A program made the translations under genes and the position numbers. From assembly GCA_027065775.1 (NCBI GenBank), contig JAMONN010000104.1:1-43447 (forward strand): a stretch of 43,447 nt of DNA, given 5' to 3'. Source of the stretch: Flavobacteriaceae bacterium. GTDB lineage: Bacteria; Bacteroidota; Bacteroidia; Flavobacteriales; Flavobacteriaceae. The notes under the pieces are model-generated. The model was given only the letters and a program-made list of their open reading frames with translations, did not search any database and had not been told where the DNA came from. The first letter of the stretch is position 1. Every line of letters starts with the position of its first letter. This document shows, one piece after another, positions 8,594 to 32,134 of this stretch.

Positions 8594-9130
8594 ATGAAAT
8601 ATTTTTATTTTTTTATACTCGTTTCTTTTATTTCTTGTCAATCTAAAATTGATAAAAACAGTTTTCGTAATAATTTTTCGGAAGAAGAAAGTGAAATATT
8701 ACAAACTGCAGACTCCATAATAAAAGCAGCTTATTACACTACTTTAATAACTTTAGATAATAAAAATCAACCAAGAGCAAGAATTGTAGAACCATTTTTA
8801 CCAGAAAAAAATTATGTAATTTGGATGGCAACAAATCCTAAAAGCAGAAAGGTAAATCAACTAAAAAATAATGCGATAACAACTTTACATTACTTTGATA
8901 AATCTAAACTAGCCTACGTTTCGTTAATGGGAAATGCTTTTTTAGTAAATAATGATTCCATTAAAAAGGAAAAATTTAAAGATGGTTGGGAAAAATTTTA
9001 TGCCAACCAAGAAGAAGCATATCTATTGATAAAATTTGTTCCGAAAACACTAGAATTAATTAGTATTTCGGATAATTATTTTGGCGATAAAACAACTTGG
9101 AAACCTCATCAGGTTAATTTATATAATTAA
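8594..9130 (+). CDS. PNPOx-like (pyridoxamine 5'-phosphate oxidase fold) lipoprotein
   Basis: The 178-residue product starts with a lipoprotein signal peptide (lipobox ISC, Cys16). The mature part follows the split-barrel flavin-binding pattern of general-stress PNPOx-like proteins: an acidic helix, YYTTLITLDNKNQPRARIVEPF, YVIWMATNPKSRKVNQLKNN and ITTLHYFDKSKLAYVSLMGNAFLVN, ending in a Trp-x6-Tyr region (GWEKFYANQEEAYLLIKF). Such proteins usually bind FMN, F420 or haem in the cytosol; a lipid-anchored envelope form is less common, so its cofactor is uncertain. It overlaps the convergent ABC ATPase gene by 4 bp at the stop codons. The fold is fairly sure and the role is not. Confidence 0.75.
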   Translation: MKYFYFFILVSFISCQSKIDKNSFRNNFSEEESEILQTADSIIKAAYYTTLITLDNKNQPRARIVEPFLPEKNYVIWMATNPKSRKVNQLKNNAITTLHYFDKSKLAYVSLMGNAFLVNNDSIKKEKFKDGWEKFYANQEEAYLLIKFVPKTLELISISDNYFGDKTTWKPHQVNLYN

Positions 9131-11094
9131 ATACCTTTTGGTATCGCATCGATCAAAGCTTTGGTATATTCTTTTTCGGGATTAGCATAAATTTCATCGG
9201 CATCACCAATTTCTTCAATTTTACCTTGGTTCATAACCACTAATTGATCTGCCATATATTTAACAACAGCTAAATCATGCGAAATAAATATATAAGTAAA
9301 GTTAAAGTGATACTTTAAGATATTTAACAAGTTTAAAACCTGTGCTTGAACCGAAACGTCTAATGCCGAAACCGATTCATCGCAAATAATAAGTTTTGGT
9401 TGTAGAGCAATTGTTCTTGCAATACCAATTCGTTGTCGCTGACCGCCAGAAAACTCATGCGGATAACGATAATAATGCTCTTTTTCAAGTCCAACTTTTT
9501 CTAAAATTTCAAAGACTTTTTCTTTTCGCTCTTTATCCGAATTATACAGTTTATGAACTAACATAGGTTCTAAAATAGCTTCACCAACTAAAATACGCGG
9601 ATTTAAACTAGAAAACGGATCTTGAAAAATGATTTGAATTTCTTTAGATAAGTTTTTTCGTTCTTTATTGATAAGATTTGTAATATCTTTATTTTGGTAT
9701 AGAATAGTTCCTTTTGTGGCTTTTTCTAAACCCATAATTGTACGACCAAGTGTGGTTTTTCCACAACCAGATTCACCTACTAAACCTAAAGTTTCGCCTT
9801 CGTATATTTTTAGAGAAATATCATCTACTGCTTTTACAATATTCTTTTTGGAAGTAAAGTAAGTTGCAAGATTTTTTATTTCTAGAATTGGCGGTTTGGC
9901 GTATAAGAGTTTGTGGTTTTGTTTGCGTTCTTTTGCTGAAATAAATTTTGAATTTTGAATTTTGGATTTTGGATTCTCATTCTTTTTCTCTTCGCATTCT
10001 TCTTTTTTATTTTCTCTGTGTTTCTCTGTGTTTCTCTGTGTTTCTCTGTGCAATAACTCTTCTTTTGACACAGATTCCACAGATTTACACGGATTTGCTT
10101 TTTTATTTTCTTTGTGGATCTTCGTGTTTCTTTGTGAATCTTTGTGTAATAACTCCTCTTTTGACACAGATTCCACAGATTTACACGGATTTGCTTTTTT
10201 ATTTTCTCTGTGAATCTCTGTGTTTCTCTGTGAATCTCTGTGTAATAACTCTTCCTCAAATTTCGTATCTAAAAAATCATCAATAGTAGGCAAAACACGC
10301 AATCTAACATCCAAACTAGGTTTAGACTGTATTAATGCTTTAGTATATTGATGTTGAGGCGATTTAAAAACTTGTTCAGACAAACCTTGTTCCACAATAT
10401 TGCCTTTATACATTACCAAAACACGATTGGCAATTTCGGAAATTAATGCCAAATCATGCGTTATAAAAATCACACTCATTTCGGTTTCTTGTTGCAATTC
10501 TTTCAACAATAAAATAATTTCTTTTTGAACAGTTACATCTAAAGCGGTTGTTGGTTCATCGGCAATTAATATTTTTGGTTTACATGCAATTGCCATAGCA
10601 ATCATGACACGTTGCATTTGTCCGCCAGAAATTTGATGCGGATATTGTGAATAAATCTGTTCTGCTCGCGGCAATTTTACTTGATTAAATAGTTTAATAA
10701 CCTCTACTTTAGCATCTGTTTTTGAGAGTTTTGTATGTTCTAATAATATTTCTAACACTTGATAACCACAAGTTAAACTAGGATTTAAAGAACTCATCGG
10801 TTCTTGAAAAATCATAGCGATTTGATTTCCTCTAATTTTACGGAATTGTTTTTCCGAACAAGTAATTAAATTTTCATTTTCAAACTCAACTTTGCCAGAA
10901 ACTACTGCTTTCTTCTTTGGCAATAAACCTAAAATAGATAATGCAGTAACCGATTTACCTGAACCAGATTCACCAACAATACCTAATATTTCGTTTTTAT
11001 TTAATTGGAAAGATATATTGTGGACTACTTGGTTGGTTTCCGTTTTTGACGGAAAAGCAATGGTAAGGTTTTTTATGTTTAGGATTGGTTTCAA
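9127..11094 (-). CDS. Fused dipeptide/oligopeptide ABC transporter ATPase (DppD-DppF type), repeat-expanded linker
   Basis: The 655-residue protein carries two complete NBDs. NBD1 (about 1-260) has Walker [11 protein letters not shown], signature ISGGQMQRV and Walker [16 protein letters not shown]2 (about 400-650) has [26 protein letters not shown] and [11 protein letters not shown]. Both are of the DppD/DppF/GsiA class that energises peptide or nickel importers. No permease or binding-protein gene is adjacent, so the partners must be elsewhere. The linker (about 277-386) is unusual: it is made of near-identical 32-residue units containing [16 protein letters not shown], then a KIQNSKF segment, all translated from DNA that elsewhere behaves as intergenic repeat. 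The frame stays open through it. A normal fusion linker is much shorter. Confidence 0.88.
9936..10264. repeat. Repeat array forming the ABC ATPase linker
   Basis: Positions 10011-10050 hold four exact copies of the 10-mer tttctctgtg. Two near-identical 96-bp units follow (10051-10146 and 10147-10242), each with 'taataactc', 'gacacagattccacag' and 'atttacacggattt' blocks, and a third unit starts at 10243. A short A/T repeat (aattttgaattttg) lies at 9944-9970. The 96-bp period is a multiple of three, so the host frame survives. Related words occur at 5914-5958, 25484-25558 and 41816-41850. Confidence 0.9.
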
Positions 11095-16691: not shown

Positions 16692-17111
16692 AAAATAAAA
16701 TATTAAGTGAACAACAAATATAACTAAACTTTTAGTTTAAACTAAAAGTTTAGTTGTATTAAATGTAATATTAATTTATCTTGATAATTTTTAATAATTA
16801 CAAATGGTTAATATTTTATTGATGAGAATATTTTGTTCTATTTCCTTTTCTTAATTTTGAGTTCGGAAGTTTCATTAGCTTGTTGCCAACACAAAAGAAA
16901 ATTCAATTTCAATAGAATTTATCATTTGTTTGATTTAGCAAAAGCACCACAAATAAACCACAAAACCAAAAGTTATCTAAACAAGAAATAAAAACTAATT
17001 TCAATAATCACAATTAGTCACAAACAGTTATTTATTATAAATTGTTATAACACCGCATTTTTATTTTGATAATTATTTGTTGGTTTGTACTGAACAAATA
17101 AATTTTTTACA
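16692..17111. other. 420-bp divergent intergenic region
   Basis: The region separates the S41 protease from the serine-hydrolase operon and holds both promoters. Apart from the 34-bp palindrome at 16722-16755 and a short TGTTGCCAACA near-palindrome around 16882, I see no gene or RNA structure. Confidence 0.5.
16722..16755. promoter_or_regulatory. Perfect 34-bp palindrome
   Basis: Both 17-bp arms match exactly around the centre GTTT|AAAC. Each arm contains its own smaller palindrome, ACTAAACTTTTAGT and ACTAAAAGTTTAGT, so the site looks like two operators joined by a third, central one. It lies 31 bp upstream of the S41 protease start, in a divergent region, where a dimeric or tetrameric repressor could act. 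A cruciform or terminator is less likely there. Confidence 0.65.
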
Positions 17112-23694: not shown

Positions 23695-25194
23695 TTATTT
23701 TTTCTTACCAAATAAAGACCTTAATTTTTTAGAAAAAACGCTTAAAATTCCTTTATTTTCTGGTTTAACATATTTCTTTTTATGTTCTTCTTTATAGTTA
23801 TGACCTGCAAGAATTAAAGCGACACGTTCTTTATACTTTGCTCCTTTTTCTTTATCTATTTGATAAATATAATTAGCAAAGCCATCTATTTGAGCCAAAA
23901 TATTTACATTTTTATTCCAAAATTTATCTTTTATACCATCTTTTTCGATTTGAAACAATAACGCTCTAAAGCGTTTTAAAGATTTTTTCGGAATATTTGT
24001 TTTTTCATTAACTACAACACCTGTAACTTCTTGCCTATTATTACGTTTCATAATACGTAATTTTTCAGGATGTAAATTAAAATTTTCATCCTCAACAATT
24101 AAACGAGAATATTTTAAAATATTTGTGATTTTTGTAAATTGTTTTTGACTTGCCGAAAATGTAATATCATCTACATATCTAGTATAATCAAAACCATATT
24201 TTTTAGCTAAACCATCTAATCTAAAATCTAATTTTCTGCAAATTACATTAGTAATTGCAGGACTACAAGGCGAACCTTGAGGTAAAAACCGAGTGCCTTT
24301 TTGTGCATAATAATCTTTACCAAGTAAAGAAATATCCAAAATTTTAGGTTCTGAACAAATCAATGCAAAAATAGTTGCTACTTGATCGGAATAACCAAAA
24401 GAAGTAAAAACACCTTTTATACGTTTATACGTAATTGTTGGAAAGAAGTTTTTTAAATCTTGGTTGATAACCACATCTTTTTTAATATGTGGTATTGCGT
24501 TAGTTTTAATCGATTTACCAACTACACAACCATTTGCTTTTTCATGCACATTAACTTTATTTAAAATTTCTTCTAAAATCCAAGTTTGTGCTGCTTTTAA
24601 CCTTGGCATTGGCGCAGAAATTAATCGAAATCCGCCAGTTTTTTTAGGGATTTGAAAACGTTTGTAATGACTTATTTTAGCATTTTTTCTTGAGAAAGAT
24701 AAAAAACGTAATTCACCAATAGTAATTTTCATTGCTTTTGCTAAATCTAAAGCTGTATGTAATATTGGTAAATTTTGTTTTTTAAGATTTTCAATATTAG
24801 AGACCTTATTGTTTAATTGATGCGAATAATTTTCGCCTAAATAAATAATATCTTGTTCTTTAGAAACTTTCCATTTTTCTGCTTTTTCTACACGTTCTTT
24901 TTCTCTACGTTCTTTGGTTTCTTTTTGTTTTAATTTGGAAGCAATTTTACGTTCTTTATGTTTTTGGGCAATAAACGCTTCTGGATCTTCTATTATTTTT
25001 TTTTCTTTAAGAAGTTTTTGTAGTTTTTTAGATAATTTACTTTCTTCTTTAAAAAATTTATTAACCGATTCAAAATCAACAGTTTCATCATTCCAAAAAC
25101 CCAAACGTTTCATTTCTGAAAGAATGTATTCTTGTTTTGAAGATCCTTTTATCTTGTCATAAATTTCTTGTCTTCTTTCCGTAGAATTTTCCAT
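23695..25194 (-). CDS. Retron reverse transcriptase with long N-terminal extension
   Basis: The 499-residue protein has the retron RT core at about 160-450: QIPKKTGGFRLISAP (RT1), the retron-specific NAIPH (NAxxH, 232-236), the catalytic Asp246 in NQDLKNFF, LPQGSPCSP (304-312), the active-site YVDD (340-343), and the retron-specific VTG (390-392, EVTGVVVN). These exclude group II introns and DGRs. The core reverse-transcribes the msd part of the upstream RNA into msDNA. The first ~140 residues are a highly charged, probably coiled-coil extension not present in the ~320-residue minimal retron RTs, and the C-terminus is a Lys-rich tail. The start lies 14 bp after the a2 repeat of the ncRNA. Last gene of the retron operon. 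Confidence 0.92.
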   Translation of the reverse strand: MENSTERRQEIYDKIKGSSKQEYILSEMKRLGFWNDETVDFESVNKFFKEESKLSKKLQKLLKEKKIIEDPEAFIAQKHKERKIASKLKQKETKERREKERVEKAEKWKVSKEQDIIYLGENYSHQLNNKVSNIENLKKQNLPILHTALDLAKAMKITIGELRFLSFSRKNAKISHYKRFQIPKKTGGFRLISAPMPRLKAAQTWILEEILNKVNVHEKANGCVVGKSIKTNAIPHIKKDVVINQDLKNFFPTITYKRIKGVFTSFGYSDQVATIFALICSEPKILDISLLGKDYYAQKGTRFLPQGSPCSPAITNVICRKLDFRLDGLAKKYGFDYTRYVDDITFSASQKQFTKITNILKYSRLIVEDENFNLHPEKLRIMKRNNRQEVTGVVVNEKTNIPKKSLKRFRALLFQIEKDGIKDKFWNKNVNILAQIDGFANYIYQIDKEKGAKYKERVALILAGHNYKEEHKKKYVKPENKGILSVFSKKLRSLFGKKK

Positions 25195-25208
25195 AAATTA
25201 TTAAAAAA

Positions 25209-25439
25209 GATAGCAATAAGACGTATTTTGTAATTCCTTCGTACAATTCTAATGACTGAATTAAACAACTCCAGTGAAATAGGTACTATAGTGCTATTTC
25301 ACTTCGTAGAAGTTTAACCGGAAATGGCACTATAGTACCTATTTCACAAGTTAAGTTTAAGTCAGTGATGCGTTCAGTAACTGTGTGCAAGATTGGCGAT
25401 CCACCAATCAGAATGCAAGGTTTTTATCTTATCACTACC
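25209..25439 (-). ncRNA. Retron msr-msd non-coding RNA
   Basis: Read on the minus strand, just upstream of the RT. The 5' a1 repeat (25427-25439, GGTAGTGATAAGA) and the 3' a2 repeat (25209-25221) pair over 13 bp with three G-U pairs. Next comes the msr hairpin GATTGG-loop-CCAATC (25391-25409). The msd is a long hairpin: two perfectly complementary 21-nt arms at 25327-25347 and 25274-25294, then five more pairs past one mismatch, closed by a loop that holds a small ACTTC-GTA-GAAGT hairpin (25301-25313). This arrangement (a1, msr stem, long msd stem, a2, RT) is the standard retron layout. Exact ends and the branching G are not determined. Confidence 0.85.
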
Positions 25440-25483
25440 AAGGTTCAAATATATTATATTTTTATTAATATTCGTTTTATTTT

Positions 25484-25558
25484 CACACGGAACTCACAGA
25501 TTTCATAGATTTTTTATGTAATAACATCGCAGGTTTTAAATCCGTGTTATCCGTGTTT
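25484..25558. repeat. Dispersed 'CACGGA / CCGTG' repeat between SWIM gene and retron ncRNA
   Basis: The segment contains cacacggaactcacagattt and, at its other end, aaatccgtgttatccgtg. The same words occur in the ABC ATPase linker array (9936-10264) and near 41816. It lies inside the retron operon, upstream of the ncRNA, so it would be transcribed with it. Confidence 0.7.
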
Positions 25559-25564
25559 CAAATT

Positions 25565-27193
25565 TTATTTTTTATCAAAAGCAATCCGTAAAGCCAAAAT
25601 ATGTGCACAAGGACCTTTTGTCATTTTATTTGTATAATAGTAATTGCAATTGCATTTACCATCTATTATTTTTAAATCATTATCAATTATAACCGAACTT
25701 TCGTATTGATTACTAACCAATCCGTTAACGATAATTTTGTTATCTGCTGTGTTCGATTTCACTTTTTTAACTTCACCATTTTGCATTAACGAATAGGCTT
25801 CTTTATCCGTTTCACTAGAAAATCGAAGTGACTCAATATCAATGCCATCTCGCTTTAATTCTCTAACTCTGTAAACCTTATTTTTAAGATCGTAAATTAC
25901 TTTTCCTGCTTGTGTAAATGTGGCTAAAGATTGTTTTACCGTATGTACATCTAAATTTAATTTTTTGGCGATTTCAGTTTCGGTATTAAACCAATCTTTT
26001 CGTAATTCTAAATAAATAGTTTGCATAGTGGTTGCTGCAACTTGTCCTCTTGGTGCTAATAAATCTAATTGACTTGCTTGTGTCCAATCATTTGCAGTCC
26101 AACCAGATAATCCTAAAGTAAAATACATTTCATTGGTTAAATGTGCTATGTAAAACGATGGCATTCCGTGACCTAAAAGATGTACTGTAAATTTATTGGT
26201 AATTGGCAGTAAACGTTCTAATAATAAAATTCTGCGTCTTCCCCAAACTTTAATTTCTTCTTCTTTTTCGCCTTTATAAATGGATTGTGTACATTCTACT
26301 TCAATATTCCAAGGTTCAAAAATAGCCACAATTGGTTGTCCTGGTTTTAGGATATATTTAATAGATCTTGGTCCTTTTCTTTCTTTATTTCGTTTTAAAA
26401 CGGAAATAAAATTAGCAATATCAATCGCTTCTAATTCAAACGAAACTTTATTACTTGTCATTGCCGAACTAACTTGTAAAAAACCACGAACCCAACTATC
26501 TGGCAAGTCAATTTTCACCTCTTTGTAATTTTCTTCGCCTGTAGTTTTTACATCAAAACCTGATGGGTCAATCTTAAAATCGGTTTCCTTATAGGTTCTT
26601 ATTTTTTGAAATTCTTGGTATAAATTATCAGAATAATCTATGTTTGTTGTACCACATTTAAATTCGTTTATATCTTTAAAAACGCCATAACCGCAAGATA
26701 ATTTTCCGTAAACGGATTCGTCTTTACTAAAACATTCAAAAAACACTTGATCAGGATGTACTGTAATTACTGGGTCTAAAACATACCAAGCAGCCATATC
26801 GCGTTTGTATAAATAATTAAAGTATTTACGTTGTGCTTTATAATATGGTCTAGTTATTTTTTCTCGTATGCTTCGTAAACCTTGTAATTCGCATTGCATA
26901 TTTTTAATTTCGGATTGTAATTTTGATAATTCTACAGAAGCATCTGCTAACCAAATTTCTTCTTGACTTTTCAACCAAGTTAAATATGCTGTATTATCCT
27001 TTGGTTGAAAATTAAAATCTGCTAAAACCACATAATGCAAAGCCGAAATTGCTTCTCGAAACGGAATTTTTTTATCTAATGTACCAACAAAAAATGTTGG
27101 GTCTCGCAAAACATCTGGTGCAAAATTTACCGAAGTTGAATTTGCTGTATTTTGCACTTTACTGTTTCCACCATATTTATAATTAAACTTCAT
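25565..27193 (-). CDS. Winged-helix-SWIM zinc-finger protein, retron-associated
   Basis: The 542-residue protein has a predicted winged helix at about 395-450 (WFNTETEIAKKLNLDVHTVKQSLATF, then AGKVIYDLKNKVYRV). It ends in a SWIM zinc finger, C514-x-C516-x12-C529-x-H531 (KCNCNYYY...GPCAH). SWIM domains bind DNA or proteins. The N-terminal two-thirds are not recognisable to me. The gene starts 4 bp after the stop of the WGR gene and is directly upstream of the retron ncRNA and RT on the same strand. A winged-helix-SWIM accessory protein is a known marker of one published retron type (I recall type XIII), so it is a likely effector or regulator of the retron. The effector activity is unknown. 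Confidence 0.8.
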   Translation of the reverse strand: MKFNYKYGGNSKVQNTANSTSVNFAPDVLRDPTFFVGTLDKKIPFREAISALHYVVLADFNFQPKDNTAYLTWLKSQEEIWLADASVELSKLQSEIKNMQCELQGLRSIREKITRPYYKAQRKYFNYLYKRDMAAWYVLDPVITVHPDQVFFECFSKDESVYGKLSCGYGVFKDINEFKCGTTNIDYSDNLYQEFQKIRTYKETDFKIDPSGFDVKTTGEENYKEVKIDLPDSWVRGFLQVSSAMTSNKVSFELEAIDIANFISVLKRNKERKGPRSIKYILKPGQPIVAIFEPWNIEVECTQSIYKGEKEEEIKVWGRRRILLLERLLPITNKFTVHLLGHGMPSFYIAHLTNEMYFTLGLSGWTANDWTQASQLDLLAPRGQVAATTMQTIYLELRKDWFNTETEIAKKLNLDVHTVKQSLATFTQAGKVIYDLKNKVYRVRELKRDGIDIESLRFSSETDKEAYSLMQNGEVKKVKSNTADNKIIVNGLVSNQYESSVIIDNDLKIIDGKCNCNYYYTNKMTKGPCAHILALRIAFDKK

Positions 27194-27197
27194 TTGC

Positions 27198-30100
27198 TTA
27201 AACAGTTTTTATGGTTAATGGAACTTCTAAATTTGGATGTGCTTCGTGAATTTCTAATAACAAATCGATATGGTGACTGTTATCTTTTATTGTTTTTGTT
27301 CCTAAAACAGTTTTTATAATTTTAATGGTCATTTCTGCAACTTTTTCATTTTTAATTTCACGTTTTAAAAAAGTATAAATCCTCGTTTTTGTTGCTCTAT
27401 TTGTATTTATATTAAATAAACTTGTCTTGAAAAAAGGTGCTAATTTTAAAATAACTTCTGTATTGTTTGACGCGTAATTATCTAAGTAATTGGTTACAAA
27501 AAACTGCATTTCTTTGGTTGGATGTTCTTGTAATTTTAATAATAAAGGCAAACCTTTGTCTTTACTAAAATGTATGGTAATCATTTTTCTACCAAATGCC
27601 TGTACGTCTTTTTTGGTATGATCAGAAACATATAATAAAAGTTCTAAAGTCCAATTTTCTAGTTTAATATGTGCTTCAAAAAATGTACAAGACCAGTTAA
27701 TTACATCTTGCCATTTGCTATTAAATACTTTTAAAGCATCTTCTAATTCGTAATTAATTCTAGCAATATTATCTTTAAAAAATTGGTGCAAACTTTCGCG
27801 AATTTCTATAACTGCACTTGTAGATAATGCTACCAATTCATCTATGGTAAAATCTTTTAAAACAACACGTTCATTAAATAGTGGTGTTCCTAATTTTTGA
27901 GCAAAATCATAATCTGAAAGTACTAAATTTACAATACCTTTTGTATTAATTGAAGGTAAATTTTTATCGTAATATTTTACTAAAACTGCATAACTATTTT
28001 CGTGAACTCCAGTGTAATCTTCAACTTGAATAATTGTATTTAATAACTGATTTAATAGTTTTTCTTTAAAATTGGCATCTAACTTTATTAAACGTTCAAT
28101 ACTTGGTTGAATGGCACCTCTAACCTCTACGTGTTCTGAAAAACAATACGAACCAATTTTGTGTTTGTGTTCTAACAAAAAAGCATCTGGAAAATGAGCA
28201 AGTATCTCGATTCCTGCTTTTCTAATAATTTTTTCATCGGAATTTATATAACTATCAAAATTGTCTTTAAATAATTGAAATGCAGGTATTTTATTGTGTT
28301 TCGCTAAATTAATTGCAAATAATTTATTAGTTATATTATTGGAAATTGCTAAATTTTTAATCTCTTTTTCGGAAGTTTCGGCAAGTAATTCACCAAAATT
28401 TGTACTGCCAATTAATTGATTAACTAACAATAGGTAATCAAAATTATAATTGCTTTCTTTTTCAAAAAAGGAATTAATTTCCGTAATAGAAAACGGCATA
28501 TTATAAGTAACTTTTACGGTATATAATTTGGTTAAATAATCAATTATAAAAAGTTGTTTTGTTAAAAGTAATTTTGAAATAAATCCTTTTTGTGTAAAAT
28601 AATTTTCTTCGTAAGTAGTTAACCATTCTACTGCAATGTTGTTTGCCCTTTGATTTGTAGATTCTAATAACGCAAATAATATACTTTCTTCGGGTTGTGT
28701 GTTTTTATATTTTTCTTTTAGAATTGGTAAAATAATTTCTAAAACTCGCTCATCATAATGACCAACTAATTTAGTTAGTAAAGCATTAGTTATGTTCTCT
28801 AAAAACTTTGGATTATCTTGTATGATTTTTAATGAAAATTCAATAGCAATATCGCTTTTTGCATTGGCTAAAATAGTTAAAATTTCTTGTGGTTTTGTGT
28901 CCCAAATTGTTGGTAATATTTCTGAACGTTGTTTTGTTGCGTCTTTAAGTTCTTCGGTAAAATAGCGTTTTATTGTGCCTTTTATTTTGTTAGAGTTACC
29001 ATAAACAATATACATTAAGGCTAAAAAATTACTATATTTTGGAAAATAATGTTTTTCGTTTTTGTATTGATCTGCTTCATAATCGTAATCCCAAATATAT
29101 TGTACATCTTCTTTTTGGTTGTCTATTTTATCATCTAACGAACACAATAAATTGGTAGCATATTCTATATAATCATCTGTTGCAGTTTTACTATAATTTA
29201 CAATTAATTTATATGCAGTTTTATCAAAATATGCTTTGGTCTTGCTTGAAAATGCAATTTTTGGATTTCTCTTTGTTTTTTCTTTTGTTGGATTGACCCA
29301 ATTTCCATCAACATAAACATCCCAAGAAGAGGAAGAATAACCAGGATTACTAATTGCAATTCGTTTTGCAAGTAACGTTAAAAACGGAATATCATTAATG
29401 ATTTCTGCTGTTCTATAAATGTAACGAATCGATTTAAACGTATTCACTTTTAAAGGCGTTTTTTGAATGAATTCGAATAATTTTTCTTTTAATTTTTCAT
29501 TTTCAAAAGCCATTAAATAAGTATAGTAAACAATATTTGCATCAATGTTTTTATCACTTAATAAATGTGATGCTATTGAACCAATTACATCATCTGTTAA
29601 AGTAACGCGTTTGTCATTTTTAACCTGTTCTTTAACTGCATTGTAATGCATTGAATTTCCGAATTTCAACAAATAAGAAACTGCAATTCTACCAACTTTA
29701 TTTGTAAATTTATTTTCTTTAAATATCGTAAAAATAGTTTCAATTTCTGTAGTATTCTTAAAATGTGCTAAAACATAAATTGTAGCATATTGTTCAAATT
29801 CATCTTTGGAATTTAGAAACGGTTTTATATAGTCTATTGCATTAGTCATATTTAATGCAATAGTTCGCATAATAATTCTTGAAAGTTTCCAGTTTCTTGT
29901 ATATGTGCCTAAATTCGCTTCTTTTAAATAAGTTAAAATTGTTTCTTCTCTGGCGGTGTTTACTTTTGGTTTAGTTTTTTTAACAGTTGTTTTTACGTTG
30001 TTTTTCCCATTTTCGGAATAACCTTTTTTCTCTTTACTTTCAACTAATTTATTAAAGATTTTTTCGGCTTCTTCAAAAGCAACAGGAAAAACAGTTTTTG

Positions 30101-30245
30101 TACCTTCTCGTAAATTTGCGCCTCTGCGACCATACCTAAAGTTTACAATAAATAAATCTTGCCCAGATTCATAAAGATCTACTTCGTAAACTTTATCTGA
30201 TTTTCCTTCAGAAAAGTATAGTGTCTTTTGTTTTATTAATTTCAA
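27198..30245 (-). CDS. WGR-domain, HEAT-like repeat protein, retron-associated
   Basis: The 1015-residue protein starts with a WGR domain (about 1-75: TLYFSEGKSDKVYEVDLYESG, FIVNFRYGRRG). A low-complexity Lys-rich linker (KKTKPKVNTAR) follows, then about 900 residues of helical, HEAT-like repeats. WGR domains are found in PARPs and in MolR-like proteins and often bind nucleic acid. No nuclease or other catalytic motif was found by eye. It is the first gene of the operon and is 4 bp before the SWIM gene. A -7-like box TACCTTTC (7 of 8) is near 30259-30266. Its place next to a retron and a SWIM protein suggests an effector or sensor in phage defence. Confidence 0.78.
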   Translation of the reverse strand: MKLIKQKTLYFSEGKSDKVYEVDLYESGQDLFIVNFRYGRRGANLREGTKTVFPVAFEEAEKIFNKLVESKEKKGYSENGKNNVKTTVKKTKPKVNTAREETILTYLKEANLGTYTRNWKLSRIIMRTIALNMTNAIDYIKPFLNSKDEFEQYATIYVLAHFKNTTEIETIFTIFKENKFTNKVGRIAVSYLLKFGNSMHYNAVKEQVKNDKRVTLTDDVIGSIASHLLSDKNIDANIVYYTYLMAFENEKLKEKLFEFIQKTPLKVNTFKSIRYIYRTAEIINDIPFLTLLAKRIAISNPGYSSSSWDVYVDGNWVNPTKEKTKRNPKIAFSSKTKAYFDKTAYKLIVNYSKTATDDYIEYATNLLCSLDDKIDNQKEDVQYIWDYDYEADQYKNEKHYFPKYSNFLALMYIVYGNSNKIKGTIKRYFTEELKDATKQRSEILPTIWDTKPQEILTILANAKSDIAIEFSLKIIQDNPKFLENITNALLTKLVGHYDERVLEIILPILKEKYKNTQPEESILFALLESTNQRANNIAVEWLTTYEENYFTQKGFISKLLLTKQLFIIDYLTKLYTVKVTYNMPFSITEINSFFEKESNYNFDYLLLVNQLIGSTNFGELLAETSEKEIKNLAISNNITNKLFAINLAKHNKIPAFQLFKDNFDSYINSDEKIIRKAGIEILAHFPDAFLLEHKHKIGSYCFSEHVEVRGAIQPSIERLIKLDANFKEKLLNQLLNTIIQVEDYTGVHENSYAVLVKYYDKNLPSINTKGIVNLVLSDYDFAQKLGTPLFNERVVLKDFTIDELVALSTSAVIEIRESLHQFFKDNIARINYELEDALKVFNSKWQDVINWSCTFFEAHIKLENWTLELLLYVSDHTKKDVQAFGRKMITIHFSKDKGLPLLLKLQEHPTKEMQFFVTNYLDNYASNNTEVILKLAPFFKTSLFNINTNRATKTRIYTFLKREIKNEKVAEMTIKIIKTVLGTKTIKDNSHHIDLLLEIHEAHPNLEVPLTIKTV

Positions 30246-32098: not shown

Positions 32099-32134
32099 AA
32101 AAAAATCTTCTGAAAATTTTCAGAAGATTTTTTT
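32099..32134. terminator. Perfect 36-bp terminator palindrome
   Basis: Two 18-bp arms flank the centre AAAA|TTTT, with the stem ATCTTCTG/CAGAAGAT and A/T tracts outside. It ends the gcdH transcript and, read from the other strand, anything coming from the TonB receptor side. Confidence 0.9.

Follow-up and report, generated by a model that had tools for sequence, protein, structure and literature searches.

A predicted msr-msd template RNA with covarying stems in a type XIII retron of a Flavobacteriaceae bacterium

The locus and its RNA element

The window, by which we mean the whole stretch of 43,447 nucleotides analyzed here (contig JAMONN010000104.1 of a Flavobacteriaceae bacterium), carries on its minus strand an operon-like set in the order WGR - SWIM - ncRNA - RT, with the RNA element lying between the SWIM_XIII and RT_XIII genes (Table 1). 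The three gene products are all matched by PADLOC profiles (E 1.3e-282 for WGR_XIII), and for the reverse transcriptase (RT) the clade profile RT_XIII scores E 4.2e-179 vs 1.2e-87 for the second-best profile, RT_other. Judged from its sequence, the locus is a type XIII retron, a kind of bacterial immune element, complete with the RT-clade match and both the WGR/HEAT and SWIM partners; the class is said to go back to the classification of Mestre et al. 2020. Its gene content is identical to that of type XIII retrons, and the retron itself is a further member of an already known type, to which we add a refined map of the ncRNA, its anatomy being accompanied by measured covariation. In the literature searched for type XIII retrons no text on this type was found, and NCBIfam gave no above-cut-off model for the RT_XIII, SWIM_XIII or WGR_XIII proteins.

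Table 1. Positions of the retron genes, of the RNA features in the window, and of the ncRNAs at two related loci
Feature	Position	Strand	Basis or remark
RT_XIII reverse transcriptase	23695..25194	-	499 aa; N-terminal extension; PADLOC E 4.2e-179
SWIM_XIII protein	25565..27193	-	542 aa; PADLOC E 6.3e-225
WGR_XIII protein	27198..30245	-	1015 aa; WGR domain, then long HEAT-type helical solenoid
Retron ncRNA, a1 to a2	25209..25439	-	covariation and folding
a1 repeat GGTAGTGATAAGAT	25426..25439	-	pairing with a2
a2 repeat GTCTTATTGCTATC, then T run	25209..25222	-	pairing with a1
Inner helix, 5' side CCTT	25417..25420	-	conservation
Inner helix, 3' side AAGG	25236..25239	-	conservation
Predicted branch guanosine, G of CCTTGC	25416	-	inferred from conservation and the Eco1 branch-site letters
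msr stem-loop	25391..25409	-	helix formed in each of the 18 distinct cores, with hardly any variation
msd stem, 5' arm, 21 nt	25327..25347	-	exact complement of 3' arm
msd stem, 3' arm, 21 nt	25274..25294	-	exact complement of 5' arm
Small hairpin in msd loop	25301..25313	-	folding; pairs without variation in group A
Predicted minimal reverse-transcribed stretch, 107 nt	25241..25347	-	from predicted branch site
Bacteroidota-type -7 promoter element TAnnTTTG (presumed)	25446..25453	-	directly before a1
ncRNA in L031	12604-12822		ahead of effector genes
ncRNA in L032	4423-4641		ahead of effector genes

A sequence-only reading of this DNA had proposed a retron RNA with a 13-bp a1/a2 stem that keeps three G-U pairs; this stem is present, and one more T-G pair makes it 14 bp. 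The same reading had described two 21-nt msd arms as exact complements, a 5-bp hairpin within the msd loop and a spacing of 14 bp between the end of a2 and the RT start, and each of these features was found again (RT start at 25194). Among the perfect inverted repeats of the window (gap up to 60) the 21-bp arm ranks first in length, and the longest in 30 dinucleotide-shuffled windows was 14 bp. Folding of the minus-strand region, likewise proposed by the sequence-only reading, gave -81.4 kcal/mol for 25450-25200, where shuffled versions average -46.5 (z -8.35), and 0 of 200 shuffles folded as well. Rfam 15 gave 0 matches at the gathering score anywhere in the window; the best of 11 matches up to E 10 within 25150-25500, mir-471, reached 35.2 bits vs the 80 required and was set aside as a long-hairpin resemblance. 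Elsewhere in the window, two gap-free perfect inverted repeats with arms of 18 bp (32099-32134) and 17 bp (16722-16755) are perhaps terminators.

Directly before a1 stands the element TAnnTTTG, which we take to be the -7 promoter motif of Bacteroidota type. Within 60 nt of the core in 36 relatives, TAnnTTTG was found in 21 and TAnnTTT[GA] in 35, both as raw counts uncontrolled for A+T-richness.

The RT has a long N-terminal extension. Its motifs NAxxH, YxDD and VTG are invariant in all 16 RTs compared, residues N232, A233 and H236 as well as V390, T391 and G392 showing no variation; NAxxH and VTG are hallmarks of retron RTs.

Related loci and covariation of the RNA

Relatives were collected with the RT protein in whole genomes (E up to 1e-50; 3/99 genomes) and with the RT_XIII profile, at E up to 1e-100 (10/397 and 6/395 genomes) and at E up to 1e-120 (9/299, 9/395, 6/126, 6/88, 2/18, 2/12 and 3/5), the genome sets being overlapping and the centre genome counted within each. 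One GTDB contig (L002) and one Methylobacterium record (L019, without a PADLOC scan of its own) were added, the latter being the sole plasmid record used among 136 that matched the RT, and the only one covered to at least 80%. The total sample consists of 40 distinct loci, at 39 of which a related RNA was identified, at 37 by the motif CCTTGC...CGAAGG and at L031 and L032 by covariance model.

Two groups can be told apart among the loci. Group A comprises 19 loci, the window included, with the RNA between SWIM and RT; the operon order WGR-SWIM-RT was seen in all ten loci taken in full, and the core measures exactly 185 nt in 19/19, the linker from AAGG to a2 varying between 10 and 17 nt. Group B comprises 17 loci with cores of 195-198 nt, and two of them, taken in full, have the order ncRNA-RT-WGR-SWIM. 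Perfect msd stems of just 10-14 bp are found in L044 and L051-L054 of this group; in L051 and L054, with a longest perfect msd part of 10 bp, the RT match contains a stop, that of L054 being truncated as well, and these two retrons look as if they were decaying. The motif core is absent from L030, L031 and L032, where the order is HEAT-SWIM-RT with no room ahead of the RT. In L031 and L032 the RNA, with a perfect msd stem of 26 bp, lies upstream of the HEAT gene, where it was first spotted by eye and then matched by covariance model at E 3.6e-5 (L031) and 0.0043 (L032). The contig of L030 has only 65 bases before its first gene, and no RNA was found there by motif or covariance model.

Between the SWIM gene and a1 the window carries an extra stretch (25455-25565, ACACGGATAACACGGATTT...TCTGTGAGTTCCGTGT) that is absent from nine other group A loci compared and has partial matches at 11 further places in the same genome; it looks like a small dispersed repeat. 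The linker of a two-domain ABC transporter ATPase encoded at 9127-11094 contains three units resembling EELLH(R/K)(D/E)(S/T)QRNT(E/K)(I/K)H(R/K)EN, which look like a dispersed repeat translated within the gene.

Covariation was measured in group A. In the first ten RNAs, 99.6% of the cells pair and double-sided changes occur at 14 of 81 pairs, a count equalled by 0/500 shuffles, and merely 0-2 double-changed pairs are left after sliding of the partners, a control on which the structure had an advantage since it was derived from the same sequences. For the 19 cores (18 distinct), double changes were found at 13 of 67 pairs, again equalled by 0/500 shuffles. The number of further pair types was in no excess over shuffles (49/500 for the ten RNAs; 142/500 for the 19 cores). 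The a1/a2 repeats are paired in all 19 group A RNAs (243 Watson-Crick plus 23 G-U cells), with two Watson-Crick types at 4 of 14 pairs. The sequence-only reading had been made to depend on compensatory changes among homologues, and these are present in both the a1/a2 and the msd stems.

A covariance model, also suggested by that reading, was built from the group A core and finds the RNA in all 17 group B loci. On 25 sources it gave 25 matches up to E 1, comprising the window, L019 (E 1e-17), the 17 group B loci, L031, L032 and four matches on the opposite strand that lie on msd hairpins (one in the window, three in group B). At the same limit no match was obtained in L030, in L033 and L034, or in the Eco1 locus L059. 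Two viral-contig loci, L033 and L034, had been picked up by a conserved 19-base pattern, and were discarded as chance matches after their different sequence, the lack of a hairpin and the lack of a covariance-model match were noted. A second sequence pattern found no match among viral contigs, and none of three RT-protein pattern matches in the viral search was a relative; in addition, nothing among phage records matched the msd hairpin (E up to 1), and nothing among plasmids matched the ncRNA.

As far as comparison of sequences can tell, the outer a1/a2 helix and the long msd stem are kept by selection, and the msr stem-loop is formed. The identification as a retron RNA is thus supported by three PADLOC-matched genes together with an RNA that recurs beside homologous RTs with compensatory changes, and we put at about 0.94 the probability that 25439-25209 on the minus strand is the msr-msd template RNA of a type XIII retron.

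Branch site, extent of the msDNA and pairing in the msd stem

The motif CCTTGC...CGAAGG lies just inside a1/a2. The larger set of RNAs was selected with CCTTGC and CGAAGG, so that invariance of the motif within it is by selection and the fair figure for its occurrence is 37 of 40 loci. CCTTGC and GTACGAAGG show no variation in the ten RNAs from the gap before the RT, whose choice made no use of the CCTTGC or GAAGG motif. Because CCTT and AAGG do not vary, covariation is uninformative on the inner helix between them, which is missing from the minimum-energy fold of the window's own RNA, is present in the alignment fold, and is set off from a1/a2 by an asymmetric internal loop.

In Eco1 (Ec86) the branch guanosine is the G after CCCTTA, the DNA begins opposite GAC, and copying begins close to a2. 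The Eco1 arrangement CCCTTA-G-C with GAC-G-TAAGGG resembles CCTT-G-C with TAC-G-AAGG in the present RNA, and the Eco1 msr hairpin GATGTTGTTTCGGCATC resembles GATGATGTTTCGTCATC of group B. L031 and L032 have a TTAGC site in place of CCTTGC, up to which a1/a2 reaches (by eye, L031), and this site of L031 resembles that of Eco1. The Eco1 retron differs in having another partner protein and in giving no match to the covariance model, and the asymmetric internal loop that sets the inner helix apart from a1/a2 is a feature of the present RNA, unlike Eco1.

According to one study, the priming guanosine in known retrons is conserved and adjacent to the inverted repeats (PMC8989520). For Eco2, another describes rG15 beside IRa1 and an overlap of DNA and RNA of 11 nt at their 3' ends (PMC12405507). 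Eco2 shares with our RNA the branch G by IRa1, one msr stem-loop and one long msd hairpin (PMC12405507). It differs in that its RT carries a fused Toprim effector.

These analogies suggest G25416 as the branch guanosine, and the template probably continues to 25241, which would make the msDNA at least about 107 nt long; an overlap of the DNA 3' end with the msr, such as Eco2 has, would add some bases. The predicted 107-nt cDNA forms a hairpin with a single-stranded 5' tail (DNA fold z -10.9). The sequence-only reading had expected an msDNA of roughly 75 nt, an estimate that corresponds to the hairpin alone (74 nt) and that probably gives way, by the Eco1 analogy, to about 107 nt at least. That the msDNA would indeed be the hairpin only, about 75 nt long, with copying begun at the base of the 21-bp stem or close to it, we regard as quite unlikely. 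The perfectly paired hairpin (25347-25274) does measure 74 nt, and it is in its stem that the group A RNAs are free of G-U, but a priming guanosine adjacent to the inverted repeats, as PMC8989520 has it for known retrons, would here set the start near 25241, and the 33 bases from there to the hairpin form, in group A, a stretch of fixed length with few variable positions.

The pairs of the msd stem differ in kind from those of the helices taken as RNA-only (a1/a2, the msr base, the msr hairpin and the outer stem, a label that is inferred). Over the 26 pairs of the group A msd stem (494 cells) we counted 490 Watson-Crick, 0 G-U and 4 A-C cells, the last in L020, L047 and the pair L045/L046, vs 13 pairs with G-U, 0 A-C and 7 cells of other mismatches in the RNA-only helices; the stretch just under the bulge, where one U-G pair is constant and a single cell is G-A, was excluded from both sides. 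Among pairs changed by transition, G-U occurs at 4/4 in a1/a2 vs 0/10 in the msd stem (Fisher p = 0.001, a guide only, as the sequences are related). Since a G-U pair in RNA becomes an A-C mismatch in the DNA copy and an A-C pair in RNA becomes a G-T wobble, this pattern fits selection on a DNA hairpin, and we read the absence of G-U from the group A msd stem as pointing to selection on its DNA form, a reading to which group B offers exceptions. These exceptions in the stem are a clade with G-U (L044, L052 and L053) and a clade with A-C (L051 and L054); group B has G-U at the foot of the stem and within the loop as well, together with one A-C cell in an outer helix. On these sequences the no-G-U rule is not absolute. 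A positive control was sought in Eco1, the copied region of which is known. Its ncRNA matched 48 of 5426 E. coli genomes at no less than 99% and four more E. coli records at 60-80%, with no match in phages or plasmids; these 52 E. coli matches are too little varied to serve as one.

The perfect stem might instead be a genomic palindrome homogenised by gene conversion from arm to arm, a process that would account for msd arms which nearly always change jointly and stay almost perfect, as repair within a palindrome likewise yields no G-U. We hold this to be very unlikely, because the a1/a2 repeats, about 200 nt apart, carry G-U as selection on RNA predicts, and repair alone explains neither why the loop is conserved and the core constant in length nor why the element goes with an RT. 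It is hardly credible that the element acts on the RT gene as an intrinsic terminator or attenuator and is no RT template, since its roughly 185 nt of conserved msr/msd anatomy far exceed a terminator, for all that a T run of at least 5 follows within 12 nt past a2 at 18 of 19 group A loci and a separate terminator-like stem is seen by eye downstream in group B. Termination of the ncRNA transcript may well be a second function of the element and is compatible with a role as template.

Every one of the 36 msd arms of groups A and B contains a GTAC or GCAC box, with GGTACTA in 28; this conservation may be due to descent alone. Two-fold symmetry (GGTACTATAGTACC and similar) is unusual (reached by 39 or fewer of 500 shuffles) in 10 of the 22 distinct arms of the two groups and not in the other 12, and against shuffled arms neither L031 nor L032 is unusual. 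A two-fold symmetric protein site in the arm was considered and is not claimed, because the excess, though above chance for unrelated arms, comes from arms that are related.

Partner proteins and proposed mode of action

The WGR domain is present in all 12 WGR_XIII members. Identity within group A is 44-56% for WGR, 73-82% for SWIM and 67-75% for RT, WGR being the least conserved. No relative of WGR_XIII was found among PDB sequence profiles up to E 0.01, and its fold matches were generic helical solenoids with low TM-scores.

For SWIM_XIII a single AlphaFold model was made, from 15 sequences, with a mean pLDDT of 69.8 and ten-residue means of 39-85 over its first half (41-240) and 66-96 over a confident second half (241-360). 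All of the 50 Foldseek matches listed (of 475, E up to 0.001) are PCNA or PCNA-complex entries, the best at E 2.7e-8. A DALI-like alignment with PCNA 3p87_A gave Z 18.9 and an rmsd of 2.9 over 235 residues, residues 34-366 of the model spanning PCNA 1-255, that is the whole two-domain clamp chain. The predicted fold resembles that of PCNA sliding clamps at 8% identity, and SWIM_XIII differs from PCNA by a helical insertion and a further C-terminal part with the SWIM finger. A profile search of PDB sequences gave 6 matches up to E 0.1, with no clamp among them; a weak match over 380-479 was to the adhesin competence repressor (E 0.08), and the secondary structure of about 387-443 would, by eye, fit a winged helix. 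The zinc ligands of the SWIM finger (C514, C516, C529 and H531) are invariant, and the Pfam SWIM model matches at E 0.024, under the family cut-off. From the model, SWIM_XIII probably contains a PCNA-like clamp fold; no such statement was found in the literature searched, which covered few of the subscription journals.

In the mechanism that we propose, the RT would prime at the 2'-OH of G25416 and copy the stretch that begins at about 25241, includes the msd stem and ends at about 25347, and host RNase H would strip the copied RNA. The product, an msDNA attached to the msr, would consist of a 33-nt 5' DNA tail and a hairpin whose stem is 21 bp long. Going by the retrons studied so far, the RT-msDNA complex would hold the WGR-HEAT and SWIM proteins inactive until a phage disturbs it, upon which the released partners would stop the infected cell. 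Given the probable clamp-like fold of SWIM_XIII, DNA replication may be the target of the damage step.

This leads to a bolder and, in our estimate, unlikely proposal, in which SWIM_XIII would be a PCNA-like clamp, with winged helix and SWIM finger, that is occupied by msDNA, freed by phage, and then jams replication. The msDNA, a hairpin duplex with a single-stranded 5' tail, would mimic a replication junction, and its occupancy would let the RT-msDNA complex keep SWIM_XIII and the WGR-HEAT protein off chromosomal DNA; destruction or modification of the msDNA by phage would allow the clamp to load on DNA and jam replication. The replication clamp as target is speculation built on the fold match. 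If true, it would mean retron killing through a clamp, with replication as the target for type XIII.

For type XIII retrons as a family, the present analysis supplies a template map with a predicted branch G, a predicted start of copying and a predicted msDNA length. In addition, it suggests the rule that helices pairing as DNA avoid G-U and helices pairing only as RNA use it, a rule by which the part that is copied might be recognised in other retron RNAs by sequence alone.
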